From contig JAQSCO010000009.1 in the NCBI GenBank assembly GCA_029945445.1, forward strand, positions 124,001 to 188,000: a DNA stretch of 64,000 nt. The letters run 5' to 3'. Below, piece after piece: positions 22,217 to 57,513 of this stretch. Below the pieces are notes generated by a model. It did not search any database. It was not told the origin of the DNA and worked only from the letters and a program-made list of their open reading frames with translations. Positions within the stretch are counted from its first letter, which is position 1, and the number at the start of each line of letters is the position of its first letter. A program made the position numbers and the translations under genes. Source of the DNA: Lacunisphaera sp. GTDB lineage: Bacteria > Verrucomicrobiota > Verrucomicrobiia > Opitutales > Opitutaceae.

Positions 22217-23973
22217 GTCAGTTTTTCCTCGCGCGTTTTCACGCCAGGGTTGCGGAAGACCTGGTCGTTCAGCACGAGCAGGTCGATGTCGGTGTTGAGG
22301 AAACATTCCCAGCCCTCGGCCGCCGTGCGCACGATGGGCTGACCGGAAACGTTGTAGCTGGTGTTGATCAGGATCGGGATGCCGGTGCGCCGCTTGAAGG
22401 CCGTGAGGAGCCGGTGCATGTCGCCGTGGATTTCCGGACGGATAGTCTGGAGGCGCGCCGAGTAGTCGACGTGAATGACGCTGCCGATCTCGCTGCGCGG
22501 AAAATCCAGCCGCTCCCGCAGGGACGCGAATTGCGCGGGCTGCGCCGTGCGGCGCTCGGCGACGAGGCCGGCAGTATACTGCATGTAGTCGCTGGGCTCG
22601 GAATTGTCGAACCACTCGGCGCAATCCTCGGCGAGCACGAGCGGAGCGAAGGGCCGGAAGGACTCGCGGAACTTCACCGCGAGGTTCAGGCGCGACTGCA
22701 TGCCGGGCTGGCGCGCGTCGGCGAGGATTGAGCGCGCGCCCAGCGCGCGGGCGCCGAGTTCCATGCGGCCCCGGACCCAGGCCACGATGCGGCCTTCGGA
22801 CAATTGACCGGCCACAAAGTCAAAGAGGTCGCCCTCCGCTGGCACCCGCCACGCGGCGGCCGCGGCGGGAATCTCGCCCGGCTCGCTGCCGAGATAGAAG
22901 CCCTGCGCGTCGACCGACAGCGGTGCACCGTCCGCCTGCTCGCGGGCGAGCAGGAGCGCCGCCCCGAGACCGCTGCCCATGTCGCCGCCGACGGGGGAAT
23001 TGAAAACGCGGCGGAAAATCCCGGCGTCGCGCAACCGGCCCGCGCTTACGCAATTTTGGGCGCAGCCGCCGCAGAAGACCAGGTTCTCCTCGCCCGTCTC
23101 GCGTTGCGCCCGCCGCGCCATCTTCAGGACCTCGTCCTCGAAGATCTGCTGCAGCGAGGCCGCGATGTCGATGTGTTCGGTGGTGAGCGCCGCACCGTCC
23201 GTCCGCACCGGGACGCCGGTGGCCTCGGCCACGCGCGGCAGGGCGGCGACGAGCGAGGCGTCAGTGAAGCGCGGCACGGCGCGCAGCCGCAGGCCGCCGT
23301 CCCCATCGGTGGTGAACAGGCGAGCCAGCCGGTCGGCGTAGACGGGACGGCCATACGGCGCGAGGCCCATCACCTTGTATTCGGAGCCGAAGGAATGGAA
23401 GCCGAGGTAATAGGTGACCAGCGTGTAGAGCATGCCGAGTCCGTTCTCGTAGCGCTGTTCCCGGAGGAGACGCAGGCCGTGCTGATCGATGACCCCGAGG
23501 CTGGCGCTGTAATCCTCGCCCTTGCCGTCGACGCAGAGGAACGCGGCCCGCCCGAACGGCGAGGTGTGGAACGCGCCCGCGACATGGGTCAGGTGATGCC
23601 ACGCGTAATGGAAGCGCGCCCGGGGAAAAAGTTCGCGGGCCGGCCGGGTGTAGTAGCCGCCCCAGGCTTCCGGCAGACACCGGCCCAGCGTGCGGGTCAG
23701 CCTGTTGCCGGGCCGGCCGGTCAGGTCGAACAGCAGGGTCTGCAGCGGTTTCTCCGCGAAGACCACGTCGGTCACGGCCGCGGCCGTCGTGCCGCCGAGT
23801 TGCAAGCAGTCGGCCAGGGCGAGGCGCGGGAAGGCGCCGTCGTGCTTGCGGCGGGAGTAGCGTTCTTCCTGCGCGGCGGCCACCAGCCGGCCGTTAACGA
23901 GCAGCGCAGCATTCGCATCGTGCCCCAGAAGGCCACCGATCCCGATAATGGCGCTGGCGGGGTGCTCGATCAA
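22186..23973 (-). CDS. NodU/CmcH-family carbamoyltransferase
   Basis: A 595-residue protein with the N-terminal ASKHA-like domain of the family (GIGGLLGHDANAALLVNG, VAAAQEERYSRRKHDGAFP) and LVFCGGCAQNCVSAGRLRD. The C-terminal domain contains GRMELGARALGARSILADAR. These enzymes use carbamoyl phosphate and ATP to place a carbamoyl group on a sugar hydroxyl. No ATG is in frame near the expected N-terminus. A TTG at 23,973 forms a TTGA 4-base overlap with the wzt stop, mirroring the ATGA junctions elsewhere. The product probably decorates a terminal or internal sugar before export by the adjacent Wzt/Wzm pair. Confidence 0.9.
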   Translation of the reverse strand: MIEHPASAIIGIGGLLGHDANAALLVNGRLVAAAQEERYSRRKHDGAFPRLALADCLQLGGTTAAAVTDVVFAEKPLQTLLFDLTGRPGNRLTRTLGRCLPEAWGGYYTRPARELFPRARFHYAWHHLTHVAGAFHTSPFGRAAFLCVDGKGEDYSASLGVIDQHGLRLLREQRYENGLGMLYTLVTYYLGFHSFGSEYKVMGLAPYGRPVYADRLARLFTTDGDGGLRLRAVPRFTDASLVAALPRVAEATGVPVRTDGAALTTEHIDIAASLQQIFEDEVLKMARRAQRETGEENLVFCGGCAQNCVSAGRLRDAGIFRRVFNSPVGGDMGSGLGAALLLAREQADGAPLSVDAQGFYLGSEPGEIPAAAAAWRVPAEGDLFDFVAGQLSEGRIVAWVRGRMELGARALGARSILADARQPGMQSRLNLAVKFRESFRPFAPLVLAEDCAEWFDNSEPSDYMQYTAGLVAERRTAQPAQFASLRERLDFPRSEIGSVIHVDYSARLQTIRPEIHGDMHRLLTAFKRRTGIPILINTSYNVSGQPIVRTAAEGWECFLNTDIDLLVLNDQVFRNPGVKTREEKLTWLGQFAKSA

Positions 23974-25187
23974 TTGGTCGGACGCATGGTCCAACGGCAG
24001 GGCAGGTCGACCGGGCCGATCACGTGGAGCGGCGGCCGGTTCGGATAGTGGCGCGGCGAGACGAAGGTGAAGGATACGGCCTCGAGTTTGGCGTCGTAGT
24101 CCTGGCCCTTGTCGCCCAGCCAGGCGGAGACGGTGAAGTTGCCGGAGTGCACCGCGAGCTGCGGGAACTCCAGCGTGCACACGCCGGCGCGGCCCGGGAG
24201 CGCCTCCGCGGGCGGATGCGTGCGCATGTTCGCGCCGAACAGCGGGCGGCCGTCGAAACTCGAGACCACGATGCCGGCGATCGCGGGCCGCAGCGGCTCG
24301 GGCGACTGGTAACTCACGTGGATGACGAGGTCCCCGGCGGCGAGGCGCACCGGGTCGATGGCGATGCGGGTGATGGCCGGCTTGTCCGCGGCCGGGTAGT
24401 CGATGGTGAGTTCGGACAGCGGCGAATGGTATTGGGTGATGACATCCTGGATCGGCCCGGTGGCTTTGATCCGGCCCGACTCCAGCAGCACTCCAGTCTG
24501 GCAGATAGCGCGCAGCGCCTCGAGGTTGTGACTGACAAAGAGGATGGTGCGGCCGGACTCGCGCGTGACTTCGCTCATCTTGCCGAGACACTTTTTCTGG
24601 AACTGCGCGTCGCCGACGGCGAGCACCTCGTCGACGATGAGGATCTCGGGCTCAAGGTGGGCGGCGACCGAGAAGGCCAGCCGCACATACATGCCGCTCG
24701 AGTAGTGCTTCACCTGCGTGTCGAGGAAGCGCTCGACCTCGGCGAAGGCCACGATCTCGTCGAACTTCCGCGTAATCTCTGCGCGCGACATGCCGAGGAT
24801 GGCACCGTTGAGAAAGATGTTCTCCCGGCCCGACAGCTCGGGGTGGAAGCCGGTGCCGACCTCGAGCAGGCTGGCGACGCGGCCGCGGATGGTGGCCCGG
24901 CCGGTGGTGGGCTCGGTGATGCGCGAGAGGATCTTGAGCAGGGTGGACTTGCCGGCGCCGTTGCGGCCGATGATGCCGATGACGTCGCCCTGGTGCACGT
25001 CAAAGGAGACATCCCGCAGCGCCCAGAACTCTTCGCCCTCGGGTGCGGTCGCGGCGGAGCCCGTGACGCGCCGCCAGAGCCCACGGGCACGGTGGGTGAG
25101 CGAGTCGCGCAGCGTGTCAGAGCGCTGCTGGTGGGAGAGGTAGTAGCGCTTGCCGAGGCCGCGCACGCTGATGACGGGGGTGGACAT
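23970..25187 (-). CDS. wzt: ABC transporter ATP-binding protein, polysaccharide export (Wzt-like)
   Basis: A 405-residue protein with Walker A GRNGAGKST at residues 74-82, an ABC signature in HYSSGMYVRLAF and Walker B EILIVDEVLAVGD with its catalytic Glu. The first ~250 residues match the KpsT/Wzt exporters. Residues ~270-405 form an extra beta-rich domain comparable to Wzt C-terminal domains, which in known systems bind the modified non-reducing end of the chain. The partner permease gene lies upstream at 25,734, separated by the four-helix-bundle gene. Its stop is shared with the carbamoyltransferase start. Confidence 0.92.
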   Translation of the reverse strand: MSTPVISVRGLGKRYYLSHQQRSDTLRDSLTHRARGLWRRVTGSAATAPEGEEFWALRDVSFDVHQGDVIGIIGRNGAGKSTLLKILSRITEPTTGRATIRGRVASLLEVGTGFHPELSGRENIFLNGAILGMSRAEITRKFDEIVAFAEVERFLDTQVKHYSSGMYVRLAFSVAAHLEPEILIVDEVLAVGDAQFQKKCLGKMSEVTRESGRTILFVSHNLEALRAICQTGVLLESGRIKATGPIQDVITQYHSPLSELTIDYPAADKPAITRIAIDPVRLAAGDLVIHVSYQSPEPLRPAIAGIVVSSFDGRPLFGANMRTHPPAEALPGRAGVCTLEFPQLAVHSGNFTVSAWLGDKGQDYDAKLEAVSFTFVSPRHYPNRPPLHVIGPVDLPCRWTMRPTN

Positions 25188-25197
25188 GAGGGATGAA

Positions 25198-25227
25198 GGA
25201 CTACTGACTACGGACCACTGACCACGG
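25198..25227. repeat. Stuttering repeat, left arm beside four-helix-bundle gene
   Basis: Short words of the type GACTACGG / GACCACTG repeat about four times on the + strand. The arm lies just outside the wzt start and covers the last codons and stop of the four-helix-bundle gene (stop at 25,208-25,210). The complementary, longer arm is at 25,656-25,736, so the gene sits between inverted arms. Confidence 0.8.
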
Positions 25228-25582
25228 TCTCCCTCTCGACTGCACGAATGAGGCCGTGCAGGCAGGCGAAGGCACTCTTGGTTTGCTGGTGGAGTTGGTT
25301 GATGAGCGGGTCCTGCAAGTAGCCAAGCCGGCTGGAGAGATGGATGAAGTATTGGGCTTCGGACAGTGAACCGCGGGCGATGTGTAGAAAATGCAGGCAG
25401 TCCTTCCGGGTGCCCCGCGCCGAGCCCTCTGCGATATTGGCCGGGACGGAACTGGATGCTCTGCGCAACTGGCTCGTCAGCCCATATAATTCGTCGCGCG
25501 GGAAACCCTTCGTTGCCTCATAGACCGCGACAGTGAGGTCGTCCGCGAGCCGCCAGGCATCGATCTTGGTGTAGTCTCTCAT
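25208..25582 (-). CDS. Four-helix-bundle protein (23S rRNA-IVS / Avd-like family)
   Basis: A 124-residue helical protein, MRDYTKIDAWRLADDLTVAVYEATKGFP, with ELYGLTSQLRRASSSVPANIAEGSARGT and a late FIHLSSRLGYL. L-x-x-Q-x-R-R-A-x-x-S-(V/I)-P-x-N-I-A-E-G is the signature of the family found in 23S rRNA intervening sequences and related to Avd of diversity-generating retroelements. Its molecular role outside those settings is unknown. It interrupts the wzm-wzt pair, is flanked by inverted stuttering repeats, and its stop codon lies within one arm. This suggests a later insertion. No reverse transcriptase or rRNA is nearby. Confidence 0.92.
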   Translation of the reverse strand: MRDYTKIDAWRLADDLTVAVYEATKGFPRDELYGLTSQLRRASSSVPANIAEGSARGTRKDCLHFLHIARGSLSEAQYFIHLSSRLGYLQDPLINQLHQQTKSAFACLHGLIRAVERETVVSGP

Positions 25583-25655
25583 TTTCAGTCATCCTTTGGC
25601 CCGGTAGTTTGTTTTGCCATGATCAGTGGCGCTGTGGCCCGAGGTGAAAGCTGGC

Positions 25656-25736
25656 AGTCCATGTAGTCTGTGGTCCGTAGTCCCGTGGTCTGATGTTCAA
25701 GTTCTGTAGTCCGTAGTCAGTGGTCCCGTTGTCTCA
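25656..25736. repeat. Stuttering repeat, right arm beside four-helix-bundle gene
   Basis: About six imperfect copies of a GTAGTC / GTGGTCCGTAGTC word fill the gap between the four-helix-bundle gene and wzm. Read on the - strand they match the + strand of the left arm at 25,198-25,227. The arm reaches the wzm stop codon at 25,734-25,736. The remaining gap from 25,583 to 25,655 shows no gene. Confidence 0.8.
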
Positions 25737-26570
25737 GATAATGTCGGCAAACGTCCGCTCGGTGCGGCGGAAATACCAGAGGCCCGTGGCGAGCAGCAGC
25801 AGCGCCATGCCGGCCGAGGTGGCGAGATTGACGGGATCGAGCGCCGGCTCGCCGTGCAGCAGGCACCAGCGGAAGCCGTCGATGGCTCCGACCATCGGGT
25901 TGAGCGAATAGATGAACCGCCAGTTGGGGAGGTTGGTGGAGCTGAACCCTACCGGGGAAAGGAACAAGCCGACCTGCAGGAGGAACGGCACGACGAAGCG
26001 GAAGTCGCGGTATTTGACCGTCAGCGCGGTGAGCCAGAGCCCGGTGCCGATCGCGGTGACCAGGGTCAGCACGACGAACAGCGGCAGGAACACGATCCGC
26101 CAATCGGGCGCGAACTGCCACCAGAGGCACATCAGCGCGAGCAGCACCAGCACGACGGCGAAGTCGATCAGCGCCACGGCCACCGACGAGAGCGGCACGA
26201 TCAGGCGCGGGAAATAGACCTTGGAGATGAGGTGGGTGTTGGCCACGAGGCTGCCGCTGGCGTTGGAGAAGGCGGCGGCGAACAGTTGCCACGGCAGCAG
26301 GCCGCACAGCACGAGCAGCGGGTAGGGCGCGTGGCCCGCGGGCATGCCGGCGAGCTTGCCGAAGATGAAGGTGAACACCGCGAGCGTGACGGCCGGCTGG
26401 ATGAGCGCCCAGAGCACGCCGAGCGTGGTCTGCTTGTAGCGCACCTTGATGTCGCGCCACGCGAGGAAGCCCAGCAGCTCGCGGAAACGCCAGAGATCAG
26501 CCCAGTAATGCCGGCTGGCGCGGCCGGCCTCGAGGATCAGTTCGGAATTTTCGTTTTTGGCGGTGCTCAC
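25734..26570 (-). CDS. wzm: ABC-2 type polysaccharide export permease (Wzm-like)
   Basis: A 278-residue membrane protein with six hydrophobic segments. It carries FRELLGFLAWRDIKVRYKQTTLGVLWALIQP, the conserved amphipathic lead-in and first helix of Wzm/KpsM permeases. FRFVVPFLLQVGLFLSPVGFSS and LNPMVGAIDGFRWCLL are conserved downstream segments. With Wzt it would move the finished, capped chain on its lipid carrier across the inner membrane. It overlaps the upstream glycosyltransferase by 4 bases. Confidence 0.95.
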   Translation of the reverse strand: MSTAKNENSELILEAGRASRHYWADLWRFRELLGFLAWRDIKVRYKQTTLGVLWALIQPAVTLAVFTFIFGKLAGMPAGHAPYPLLVLCGLLPWQLFAAAFSNASGSLVANTHLISKVYFPRLIVPLSSVAVALIDFAVVLVLLALMCLWWQFAPDWRIVFLPLFVVLTLVTAIGTGLWLTALTVKYRDFRFVVPFLLQVGLFLSPVGFSSTNLPNWRFIYSLNPMVGAIDGFRWCLLHGEPALDPVNLATSAGMALLLLATGLWYFRRTERTFADII

Positions 26571-31435: not shown

Positions 31436-31744
31436 ATGGCCGGCGTAGGCAAACTCCTCAAACAAGCCCAGAAAATGCAGAAGCAGATCGAGACGATGCA
31501 GGCATCGCTCGGGACGCAGGTGATCGACGTGTCGAGCGGCGGCGGTGCCGTGCAGATCAAGATCAACGGCGCGGGCAAGTTCCTCGCGTTCAAGCTCGAC
31601 CCCGAGTTTCTCAAGGAGGCGCCGTCGCTTATCGAGGAGACGGTGCTCAACGCCGTGTCGGAGGCCACGCAGAAGGCGAAGGACCTCAACGAGTCCGAGA
31701 TGCAGAAAATCTCCTCGGCCTTCCAGATGCCGGGGATGTTCTAG
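31436..31744 (+). CDS. ybaB: YbaB/EbfC nucleoid-associated DNA-binding protein
   Basis: A 102-residue protein, MAGVGKLLKQAQKMQKQIETMQASLGTQVI, with GGGAVQIKINGAGKFLAFKLDPEFL and a C-terminal helix rich in Glu/Lys. Length and the N-terminal coiled helix match YbaB/EbfC, a dimeric DNA-binding protein usually encoded next to recR, as it is here. ATG at 31,436 gives the family N-terminus. An in-frame GTG at 31,403 would add an unconserved 11-residue leader. Its stop codon is immediately followed by the stuttering repeat that separates it from recR. Confidence 0.95.
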   Translation: MAGVGKLLKQAQKMQKQIETMQASLGTQVIDVSSGGGAVQIKINGAGKFLAFKLDPEFLKEAPSLIEETVLNAVSEATQKAKDLNESEMQKISSAFQMPGMF

Positions 31745-31833
31745 GATTTTGGATTCTGGATTCTCGATTTTGGATCGGCCGTCCCGAAGCCGGTTTCTGA
31801 AATCGAAAAGCAAGAATCGAAACTTAAAAATCC
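31743..31833. repeat. Stuttering inverted repeat between ybaB and recR
   Basis: The left arm (31,743-31,775) repeats GGATTTT / GGATTCT four times. The right arm (31,800-31,833) carries the complementary AATCGAAA / AAAAATCC words. The 24-base loop is GC-rich. The element begins inside the ybaB stop codon and ends one base before the recR ATG at 31,835, so it fills the whole junction. Confidence 0.8.
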
Positions 31834-36533: not shown

Positions 36534-36650
36534 GCTCACGAAACACACGAAACGACACGAAATGAAGATCACGGAGGCATGTCATTCTGAGCGCAGCAAG
36601 GAATCCAGTTCTGGCTTTGATTCGTGTCGTTTCGTGTCCTTTCGTGGGCA
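36534..36650. repeat. Stuttering inverted repeat between M48 and EEP genes
   Basis: The left arm (36,534-36,562) repeats CACGAAAC three times. The right arm (36,621-36,650) repeats TTCGTGTC three times. The loop holds a second repeat, 36,579-36,607 (GTCATTCTGAGCGCAGCAAG core), a palindromic sequence whose spurious translation reads CHSERSKES. The element begins 6 bases after the M48 stop and extends into the 5' end of the next frame. Confidence 0.8.
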
Positions 36651-56318: not shown

Positions 56319-56406
56319 TTTTTCAATGTTCATCGTTCAGTGTTCAATTTTCATTTGGAAAAAGACGCCTTCCAATGAACGGTGAACAATGAACGTTGAA
56401 AAATGA
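56319..56406. repeat. Stuttering inverted repeat between SDR and DegT genes
   Basis: The left arm (56,319-56,360) repeats TGTTCA / CGTTCAG-type words four times. The right arm (56,370-56,406) repeats TGAACG / TGAACAA. The loop is 9 bases. It begins 5 bases after the SDR stop and ends 3 bases before the DegT ATG at 56,410. Confidence 0.85.
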
Positions 56407-56409
56407 CCG

Positions 56410-57513
56410 ATGAAGATCCTCCCCGCCGACCCCAGGGCCACCTACCTCGCCGCGCAGGCCGAGATCGACGCCGCCATCAAGCGCGTGCTGCTGAGCGGCC
56501 ATTACATCCTCGGCCCCGAGCTCGATGCCTTTGAGAAGGAATTCTCCGCGTGGTTCGGCACCGCGGGCACGGTTGGCGTGGGCAATGGCACCGACGCCAT
56601 CGAACTGGCCCTGCTCGCCGCGGGCATCGGGCCCGGCGACAAGGTCGTCACGGTGGCCAACACCGTCACGGCCACCGTCGCGGCGATCGTCGCGACCGGC
56701 GCGAAGCCGGTATTCGTCGACGTCGAGCCCGGCACGATGCTGCTGGATGTGGCCGCCCTCGAGGCGATGCTCGCCAAGCTGCGCGATCCGAAGATCAAGG
56801 CGGTCGTGCCCGTGCATCTCTACGGCCTGGCCGCCGACATGCCGCGGCTCATGGAAGTGGCGGTCCGGCACAACCTGTTTGTGATGGAAGACTGCGCGCA
56901 GGCGCACGGCTCATTGGTCGGCGGAAAAAAGGCCGGCACGTGGGGGCAGCTCGCCTCGTTCAGTTTCTATCCCACCAAGAACCTCGGCGCGCTCGGCGAC
57001 GCCGGCGCCGTGACCGGGCGCGACGCCGCCCTGCTCGAGAAGGTGCGATTGCTGCGGCAATACGGCTGGCGCAAGCGCTACGTGAGCGACCTACACGGCC
57101 GCAACAGCCGGCTCGATGAACTGCAGGCGGCGATCCTCCGCGTGCGGCTGACGCGGCTGGATGCCGAGAATCAACGCCGCGGCGAGATCGCGAAACTTTA
57201 CCTGGCCGCGCTCAAGGGGGCGCCGCTCGCGCTGCCACTCGTGCCCGAGGGGCGGACGCATACGTGGCACCAGTTCGTGGTGCGCACGCCGAAGCGCGAC
57301 GAACTCCGGGCGCATCTGGAAAAGAAGGACATCTTTTGCGGGGTGCTTTATCCCATGCCGATCCACCGTCAGCCCGCGTATCATGACGCGAGCCTCGCGC
57401 TGCCGCAGACGGAGCAGGCCTGTGCTGAGGTCTTGTCGCTGCCGCTGCACCCTGGCCTGTCCAACGACGATCTCGCGCGGGTGACCGCTGGGGTGAAGCA
57501 ATTCTTTGCCTGA
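56410..57513 (+). CDS. DegT/DnrJ/EryC1 family PLP-dependent aminotransferase
   Basis: A 367-residue protein with the PLP lysine K190 in FSFYPTKNLGALGDAGAV. VGVGNGTDAIELALLAAGIGPGDKV, VEDCAQ-type MEDCAQAHGS and LHGRNSRLDELQAAILRVRL follow. These enzymes aminate keto-sugars of nucleotide sugars. With the SDR upstream it probably makes an amino sugar, perhaps for the surface glycan at the left of the window (inference). It ends before the AT-rich palindrome and the convergent purA gene. Confidence 0.93.
   Translation: MKILPADPRATYLAAQAEIDAAIKRVLLSGHYILGPELDAFEKEFSAWFGTAGTVGVGNGTDAIELALLAAGIGPGDKVVTVANTVTATVAAIVATGAKPVFVDVEPGTMLLDVAALEAMLAKLRDPKIKAVVPVHLYGLAADMPRLMEVAVRHNLFVMEDCAQAHGSLVGGKKAGTWGQLASFSFYPTKNLGALGDAGAVTGRDAALLEKVRLLRQYGWRKRYVSDLHGRNSRLDELQAAILRVRLTRLDAENQRRGEIAKLYLAALKGAPLALPLVPEGRTHTWHQFVVRTPKRDELRAHLEKKDIFCGVLYPMPIHRQPAYHDASLALPQTEQACAEVLSLPLHPGLSNDDLARVTAGVKQFFA

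Follow-up and report, generated by a model that had tools for sequence, protein, structure and literature searches.

Four-helix-bundle genes between inverted heptad arrays, a candidate class of single-gene elements resembling 23S rRNA intervening sequences

In the window, the whole stretch of 64,000 nucleotides analyzed here, a small four-helix-bundle gene and the inverted repeat arms on both of its sides occupy ~540 nt between the stop codon of wzm and the start codon of wzt. With moderate confidence, we propose that gene and arms together are a single-gene mobile element similar to the intervening sequences (IVS) of 23S rRNA, and that the encoded protein would bind the heptads of its own element. 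Such an element would be minimal and probably selfish, and its class may include the rRNA intervening sequences as a special case. PF05635 proteins are widespread, and we know of no job for them outside of rRNA intervening sequences and Avd relatives.

The Window Gene and Its Arms

The gene, its arms and the flanking genes are arranged as follows.

23970-25187, minus strand: wzt-like flanking gene, ABC transporter ATPase (profile match; Wzt_C match below cut-off)
25198-25227: arm downstream of the four-helix gene, an inverted copy of the upstream-arm word that holds the stop codon of the gene
25208-25582, minus strand: four-helix-bundle gene, 124 aa, ATG start, PF05635/TIGR02436
25662-25734: arm upstream of the four-helix gene, two heptad blocks (25662-25691 and 25705-25734)
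25734-26570, minus strand: wzm-like flanking gene, ABC-2 type permease (profile match)

The gene scored 113.3 bits against PF05635 (cut-off 33.8, E 8e-33) and 111.9 bits against TIGR02436 (cut-off 24, E 1.7e-32). Together with the Avd fold described below, this bears out an earlier note, which had placed the gene in the 23S rRNA-IVS/Avd-type family from the letters alone. Between the arms, it is the sole recognizable protein gene according to the ORF list and the profile search. The two arms pair in inverted orientation over 24 nt at 88%, 20 nt at 90% and 19 nt at 89%; the earlier description of a gene enclosed by inverted arms therefore stands, except that the right arm starts at ~25662 and not at 25656. 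The left arm (25198-25227) has the sequence GGACTACTGACTACGGACCACTGACCACGG and does, as had been claimed, include the stop codon of the gene, which reads CTA on the plus strand (25208-25210). On the sense strand of the gene, the upstream-arm word is GACYAC followed by G or T, and the same word runs in the opposite orientation in the downstream arm. The two blocks of the right arm are 83% alike. Matches to the KGACYACKGACYAC pattern numbered 13 in the 4.17 Mb genome, six of them within the two window arms, and the reversed control of this pattern gave no match in the same 4.17 Mb.

Close homologues of the window gene were found among the genus genomes in G000, G007 and G009 only, and arm length varies among the orthologues. 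The inverted-repeat score of the window copy was 18.0, a value that 13/295 control ORFs reach, and the orthologues in G007 and G009 scored 14.0 and 17.5 (both below 18), with words visible by eye. Since the window copy alone lies at the edge of the control distribution, the weight rests on the family-wide comparison.

Fold and Chemistry of the Protein

The AlphaFold model of the window protein (pLDDT 95.1) has four helices. The closest solved structure was 2gsc (TM-score 0.91 normalized by query, rmsd 0.8, E 6e-9), followed in our comparison by 2rld (TM 0.74-0.79), by Avd of diversity-generating retroelements (DGR; 4dwl, TM 0.76-0.78, Foldseek E 0.02-0.14, probability 1.00) and by chains of the DGR RNP (8ub7/8ube, TM 0.74-0.80, E >0.01). 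The sequence identity between the window protein and Avd is 8-9%. The profile matches and the predicted structure make the window protein a relative of the 23S rRNA intervening-sequence protein with the same fold as Avd. S23p, the protein of these intervening sequences, we take to be of the PF05635 family, which fits the Pfam name. The pI of 78 relatives has a median of 8.9, with 17/78 below 7, which is compatible with nucleic-acid binding and not diagnostic of it. 2gsc and 2rld comprise five chains each, and the title of a reference describes 2gsc as five four-helix bundles.

Four-Helix Genes Carry Arms in Many Bacterial Groups

In all sets, arms were defined as an inverted-repeat score of at least 18, or as lag-7 arrays (score of at least 10) on both sides. 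The earlier note had suggested scoring the flanks of homologous genes for inverted short-word repeats, and arms were indeed usual: by this definition, they were found at 72/97 four-helix genes of the genus, at 11/17 order-level genes (duplicate removed) and at 58/75 worldwide genes taken from the best 80 of at least 570, compared to 0-4% of the controls (13/295 and 8/216 ordinary ORFs, and 0/27 ParE toxin genes of the same genus). One-sided heptad arrays were seen near 7/295 and 22/216 ordinary ORFs, the latter from worldwide loci. About a quarter of the four-helix genes lack arms by the definition, including both wzm-wzt orthologues of the window gene.

The worldwide sample consisted of the best 80 of at least 570 confirmed stretches in named genomes, five of which had short flanks (n = 75). 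For the genus, 98 of 103 over-cutoff matches in 21 genomes were fetched and one had a short flank (n = 97); for ParE, three of 30 fetched loci had short flanks (n = 27). Five loci (L130, L131, L134, L143 and L154) were excluded as duplicates or as a second match on one contig. L132 and L177 are one gene; the order-level figure is 11/17 without L132 and 11/18 with it.

The flanks were also compared with a null distribution built from mismatched flanks. Worldwide, 39/75 loci (best 80 of at least 570) lay above its 99% point in inverted orientation and 9/75 in direct orientation. In the genus, where the null contains orthologues, 68/97 loci lay above the 95% point and 31 above the 99% point, compared to 8 and 2 in the direct control. 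The period of seven, with its harmonic 14, dominated worldwide (lag 7 in 29/75 left and 25/75 right flanks from the best 80 of at least 570), while lags 3-6 and 8-13 were seen in 0-3/75 flanks (0-2/75 left flanks); control windows gave 3/319. Period scores of at least 10 were obtained in the genus for lag 7 at 62/97 loci, for lag 6 at 17/97 and for lag 8 at 14/97, and a word length of 6 or 8 nt is thus possible for some loci. An 8-nt arm word, AGCGAGTC repeated, occurs at a locus of Granulicella mallensis (L127).

The 58 arm-positive worldwide loci (from the best 80 of at least 570) include Bacteroidota, Chloroflexota, Planctomycetota, Acidobacteriota, Pseudomonadota, Verrucomicrobiota, Bacillota, Nitrospinota, Elusimicrobiota, Campylobacterota and Actinomycetota, and additionally Poribacteria, Patescibacteria-type candidates, WOR-3 and one archaeal MAG, with contamination of MAGs possible; some of these phylum assignments are our assumption. 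This shows that the architecture of gene plus arms recurs across some dozen phylum-level groups or more.

Within the 4.17 Mb genome of the window, the PF05635 profile search returned eight places, seven of them above cut-off. By eye, each of these seven is flanked on both sides by stuttered words in inverted orientation, and no two of them have the same word. Lag-7 arrays (score of at least 10) were detected on at least one side of 7/7 copies and on both sides of 2/7, and the combined definition of arms applied to 5/7. In-frame stops lie inside 2/7 of the PF05635 matches. The eighth place (L008) was left out as sub-cutoff; by eye, it has possible CCTATAGG arms. The arms of L003 reach into the beginning of the gene downstream, and at L006 the trpB-like gene upstream takes its stop codon from the arms, so that the end of the neighbor is altered.

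Architecture and Polarity of the Arms

The elements follow the general plan 5'-(RGNNNTN)n - four-helix-bundle ORF - (complement of the same word)n-3', in which each element uses a single word. A fit that was free in strand and phase learned RGNNNTN from 161 arrays at 135 loci, and in 144/161 arrays the consensus read along the sense strand (upstream arrays) or the antisense strand (downstream arrays). In upstream flanks, the sense strand had more RG pairs seven apart than the antisense strand at 63 loci vs 9 with the reverse, and in downstream flanks the antisense strand was ahead in 66 vs 5 (n = 77 worldwide for both, with ties; best of at least 570). The full set of 212 arrays, which counts one gene twice (L132 = L177), showed a weaker orientation split (168 vs 44), and its RG consensus reached 3.07 bits vs at most 2.51 in 20 word-permuted nulls. 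The word of the window itself is an exception, as it fits RGNNNTN on the opposite strand only. Variability by position within arrays gave a modest signal. The median distance from arm to HMM match was 34-37 nt. An array holds a median of 4.6 heptads, a value bounded by the detection threshold, so that a match to five subunits is not proved.

Gene and Arms Are Present or Absent Together at Operon Junctions

The earlier note had also proposed looking for an empty wzm-wzt site in close relatives, and such sites exist. We read 16 wzm-wzt loci by eye, 13 of which were readable and three not. Six of the 13 readable junctions are empty, with 2-3 nt from the wzm stop to the next ATG, and three have the gene with arms. 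One further locus (L240 in G003) is a remnant that has kept some arm sequence as well as the 5' part of the gene, its middle being a GC-rich palindrome. The last three (L236 in G015, L241 in G012 and L243 in G013) hold another gene, armless on the wzm side, whose residues read as those of a putative nucleotidyltransferase-like protein.

Two further junctions were read by eye. Between trpB and yicC (19 loci), three junctions are empty with overlapping ATGA, eight are filled by two word/protein lineages, one is an apparent gene-less remnant, and seven are other spacers without a gene. At the junction before a uap-like gene (16/21 loci read), two are filled, nine are geneless with a spacer of at most ~75 nt, and 5/16 have longer spacers of other sequence. 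At all three operon junctions, relatives are empty where the genome of the window has gene and arms. Across orthologous junctions, the whole unit of gene and arms is thus either there or missing, and its insertion as a unit is well supported.

As arms are usual in homologues and the wzm-wzt site is empty in relatives, gene and repeats form one unit. The idea put forward in the earlier note, that such genes are cargo of the repeats or help to spread them, is partly supported, in so far as the two belong together. No target-site duplication was recognized by eye, the empty junctions consisting of 2-3 nt or of overlapping ATGA. Filled sites are common to several species, which indicates that the insertions are not recent; the flanks of L002, L019 and L132 align at 74-86%, and recent jumping was not seen among these old filled sites.

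The Word Follows the Protein More Than the Site

For the comparison of words, the upstream arm of one locus was compared with the downstream arm of a second locus after the latter had been reverse-complemented, by which homology of gene ends is avoided. Relatedness of sites was assessed by blastn of the 1-kb outer flanks only. Pairs with fewer than 60 aligned residues, two of them with a false 100% identity, and the duplicate L132 were removed (645 of 18,329 pairs). The pairs are non-independent, and Fisher values were set aside.

At homologous sites, the word was shared in 94/114 pairs with a protein identity of at least 60% (direct-orientation control 3/114) and in 3/66 pairs with an identity below 50% (control 0/66). 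At unrelated sites, the word was shared in 39/108 pairs with an identity of at least 60% (control 8/108; the matching pairs involve 40 distinct loci) and in 406/16,370 pairs below 50% (control 209/16,370); most similar-protein pairs at unrelated sites fail the word match. Two protein lineages with different words occupy the same trpB-yicC junction, being 53-59% identical over 71-93 residues (two and four members compared). Further, L010 (G005) and L012 (G018) lie at the same site with ~96% identical upstream flanks and have clearly different genes and words, which suggests that the whole element was replaced or has changed very fast. As these comparisons show, inheritance ties the word more closely to the protein than to the site. 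The covariation of word and protein can be plain co-inheritance of the parts of one element.

Gene-Less Copies of the Arms

The window contains one inverted heptad pair without a gene.

56322-56414: gene-less inverted heptad pair with the word CAATGAA, which is the word of the four-helix gene L003 in the same genome

In the genome of the window, the CAATGAA pattern had 108 matches vs 4 for its control, and 79 of the 100 places listed fall in three neighborhoods (on contigs C49, C35 and C60). We extracted 21 gene-less inverted pairs from the stretches analyzed. By eye, most of the 13 pairs on C49 have a like loop, and C35 and C60 have two pairs each with shared loops that differ from those of C49. 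Given these like loops, the arms-only derivatives look copied as units. A part of C49 (G000:C49:39500-68000; L215 and L216) is dense in gene-less CAATGAA palindromes of ~65-80 nt in successive intergenic regions, which suggests local spreading. We rejected an integron reading of this cluster: unlike in an integron cassette array, the C49 repeats lie between ORFs on both strands and not on the same strand.

In the other genomes of the genus, G009 had 10 CAATGAA matches (control 1), seven of which lie within ~3 kb of the gene copy in G009, including three in the arm of that copy. G019 had 22 matches (control 1) with the cognate gene absent, its four PF05635 genes being at most 34% identical to the CAATGAA-type protein. 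The remaining 18 genomes gave 0-13 matches, mostly near controls. Arms-only GACYAC arrays were likewise found in genomes in which the window gene was not found (six matches in G001, four in G016, four in G019 and two in G011). Arms-only arrays in genomes in which the cognate gene was not found indicate that a resident gene is either not strictly needed or was lost, and they weaken a strict one-gene-one-word mobilization in trans.

Comparison with Known Systems

According to excerpts of PMC4990558, the 23S rRNA IVS of Coxiella consists of an S23p ORF within terminal inverted repeats that form a stem, is termed a selfish genetic element and has tandem heptamers, GACAGAT, just upstream of the S23p ORF. 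In the register AGATGAC, we read these as RG-heptads on the sense strand, like those of the elements described here. The window element likewise has an IVP ORF between complementary ends. Unlike a 23S IVS, it is located outside of rRNA, between wzm and wzt, and 0/192 loci were matched by E. coli rrlB (23S rRNA) at 1e-10. Unlike the Coxiella IVS as excerpted, the elements here have heptad arms on both sides, element-specific words and arms-only relatives. A relation of Avd to PF05635 is noted in an excerpt of PMC10053308; unlike a DGR, the window element has no recognizable reverse transcriptase or TR/VR pair between its arms, and its neighbors are wzm and wzt.

Heptamer arrays without a known partner are described in excerpts on Geobacter metallireducens (PMC2700814) and on Beggiatoaceae (PMC4679880). 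The former are multicopy arrays of four or five tandem heptanucleotides, some of them paired, which the excerpt of PMC2700814 interprets as sites of IHF/HU or of a global regulator; the other strand of their word, MTYCTGA, would be an AG-heptad akin to the RG-heptads here. The latter are arrays of TAACTGA upstream of start codons (PMC4679880, excerpt), whose complement in the register AGTTATC would fit RGNNNTN and which, unlike the arms here, are almost all direct and not inverted. The terms "four-helix" and "S23" are both absent from the main text of PMC2700814, as are "four helix" and "S23" from the text of PMC4679880. Among the open-access papers listed in our searches, none was found that ties heptamer arrays to free-standing four-helix genes.

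REP elements with RAYT are intergenic palindromes that have spread in many copies; unlike these, the element here has no Y1 gene. It also differs from DDE or Y1 insertion sequences, as PF05635 is the only match within its inverted ends and a recognizable transposase is lacking there.

A Proposed Mechanism and Its Alternatives

We propose that the unit of gene and arms was inserted between the wzm stop and the wzt start. The four-helix protein, which is related to pentameric rings (to 2gsc, and to Avd by its fold), would bind the heptads of its own element on RNA or DNA in single-stranded form, with each subunit perhaps taking one heptad. Such reading of the heptads by a ring might serve the copying or the tolerance of the element. 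Binding of this kind would explain that there is one word per element and that the word changes together with the protein. By analogy with the RNase III-cut stem of the 23S IVS, foldable inverted arms might make insertion near operon genes tolerable. The element has no recognizable enzyme for cutting, copying or joining, for which a host or trans-acting machine is presumed. The link between PF05635 and heptamers provides a likely target for the protein and a likely source for the repeats. It also makes the old questions about the nature of IVS elements and the role of S23p in mobility testable with a defined word and a defined protein.

In a wider form, held tentatively and on balance doubted by us, the proposal would describe pan-bacterial minimal elements in which a pentameric four-helix ring reads its own heptad array at one heptad per subunit, protein and word co-evolve, and arms-only derivatives spread in a MITE-like manner; the 23S IVS and the orphan heptamers of Geobacter, Beggiatoaceae and others would be offshoots. 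If such a pentamer-heptad code holds, it would constitute a protein-word recognition system with many natural variants.

Alternatively, the repeats could be the mobile part, as REP/MITE-like hairpins moved by Y1/RAYT or another transposase, and the four-helix gene a captured passenger. We consider this unlikely. The CAATGAA word does occur in more gene-less than gene-bearing inverted arrays, and arms-only arrays are present where the cognate gene was not found, but a passenger would not stand out so clearly from ParE (0/27) and ordinary ORFs (13/295 and 8/216), and the word tracks the protein lineage. Similarly, Y1_Tnp genes are present in 16/21 genus genomes, yet no Y1_Tnp match was obtained in G006 (eight PF05635 matches, seven over cut-off; 91% complete) or in G018 (one; 99% complete). 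RAYT as a required mover is unsupported, as G004, G005, G006 and G018 all have PF05635 genes without a Y1_Tnp match. That the word tracks the protein and that the gene is the sole recognizable one between the arms argues for an active role of the gene.

The arms could also be regulatory, with the pentamer binding RG-heptads in its own mRNA leader, the downstream arm acting as terminator or RNase III site and the gene being an accessory gene moved by recombination. TRAP-like autoregulation is a comparison for binding of this type to an mRNA leader. The polarity of the arms relative to the gene and their closeness to it (median 34-37 nt from the HMM match) would be expected, and paired heptanucleotides of Geobacter are taken as regulator sites in the excerpt of PMC2700814, but this reading does not explain why the downstream arm repeats the word in inverted form, why gene-less copies have like loops and why gene and arms are present or absent at operon junctions, which makes it quite unlikely. 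Very improbable, and already contradicted by the controls, is a slippage artefact in which DNA beside small foreign genes decays to heptamer stutters and is inverted by template switching, with neither mobility nor recognition: heptamer slippage in bacteria is discussed in the excerpt of PMC4679880 and arm length differs between orthologues, but two-sided arms are at background for other small genes, the arms have a polarity and an RG consensus of 3.07 bits vs at most 2.51 in permuted nulls, and the same word occurs in relatives at unrelated sites. We therefore retain the single-gene mobile element as the favored explanation.

Other Stuttering Repeats

Two further stutters were located in the window.

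31744-31775: single heptad array with a GGATTCT-type word, the array list giving no second array nearby
36537-36646: gene-less inverted stuttering pair with a word of ~10 nt, CACGAAACGA / TTCGTGTCCT

The other stutters of the window had been described as short-looped, which is true for 36537-36646 and 56322-56414 and does not apply to the single array at 31744-31775. Gene-less inverted stutters with longer words, of the ATCCGTG-containing/CACGAAACGA type, were also observed at the trpB-yicC junction in three genomes (L284 in G019, L289 in G006 and L292 in G003). Together with the pair at 36537-36646, they apparently form a separate class of repeats at junctions of this kind.
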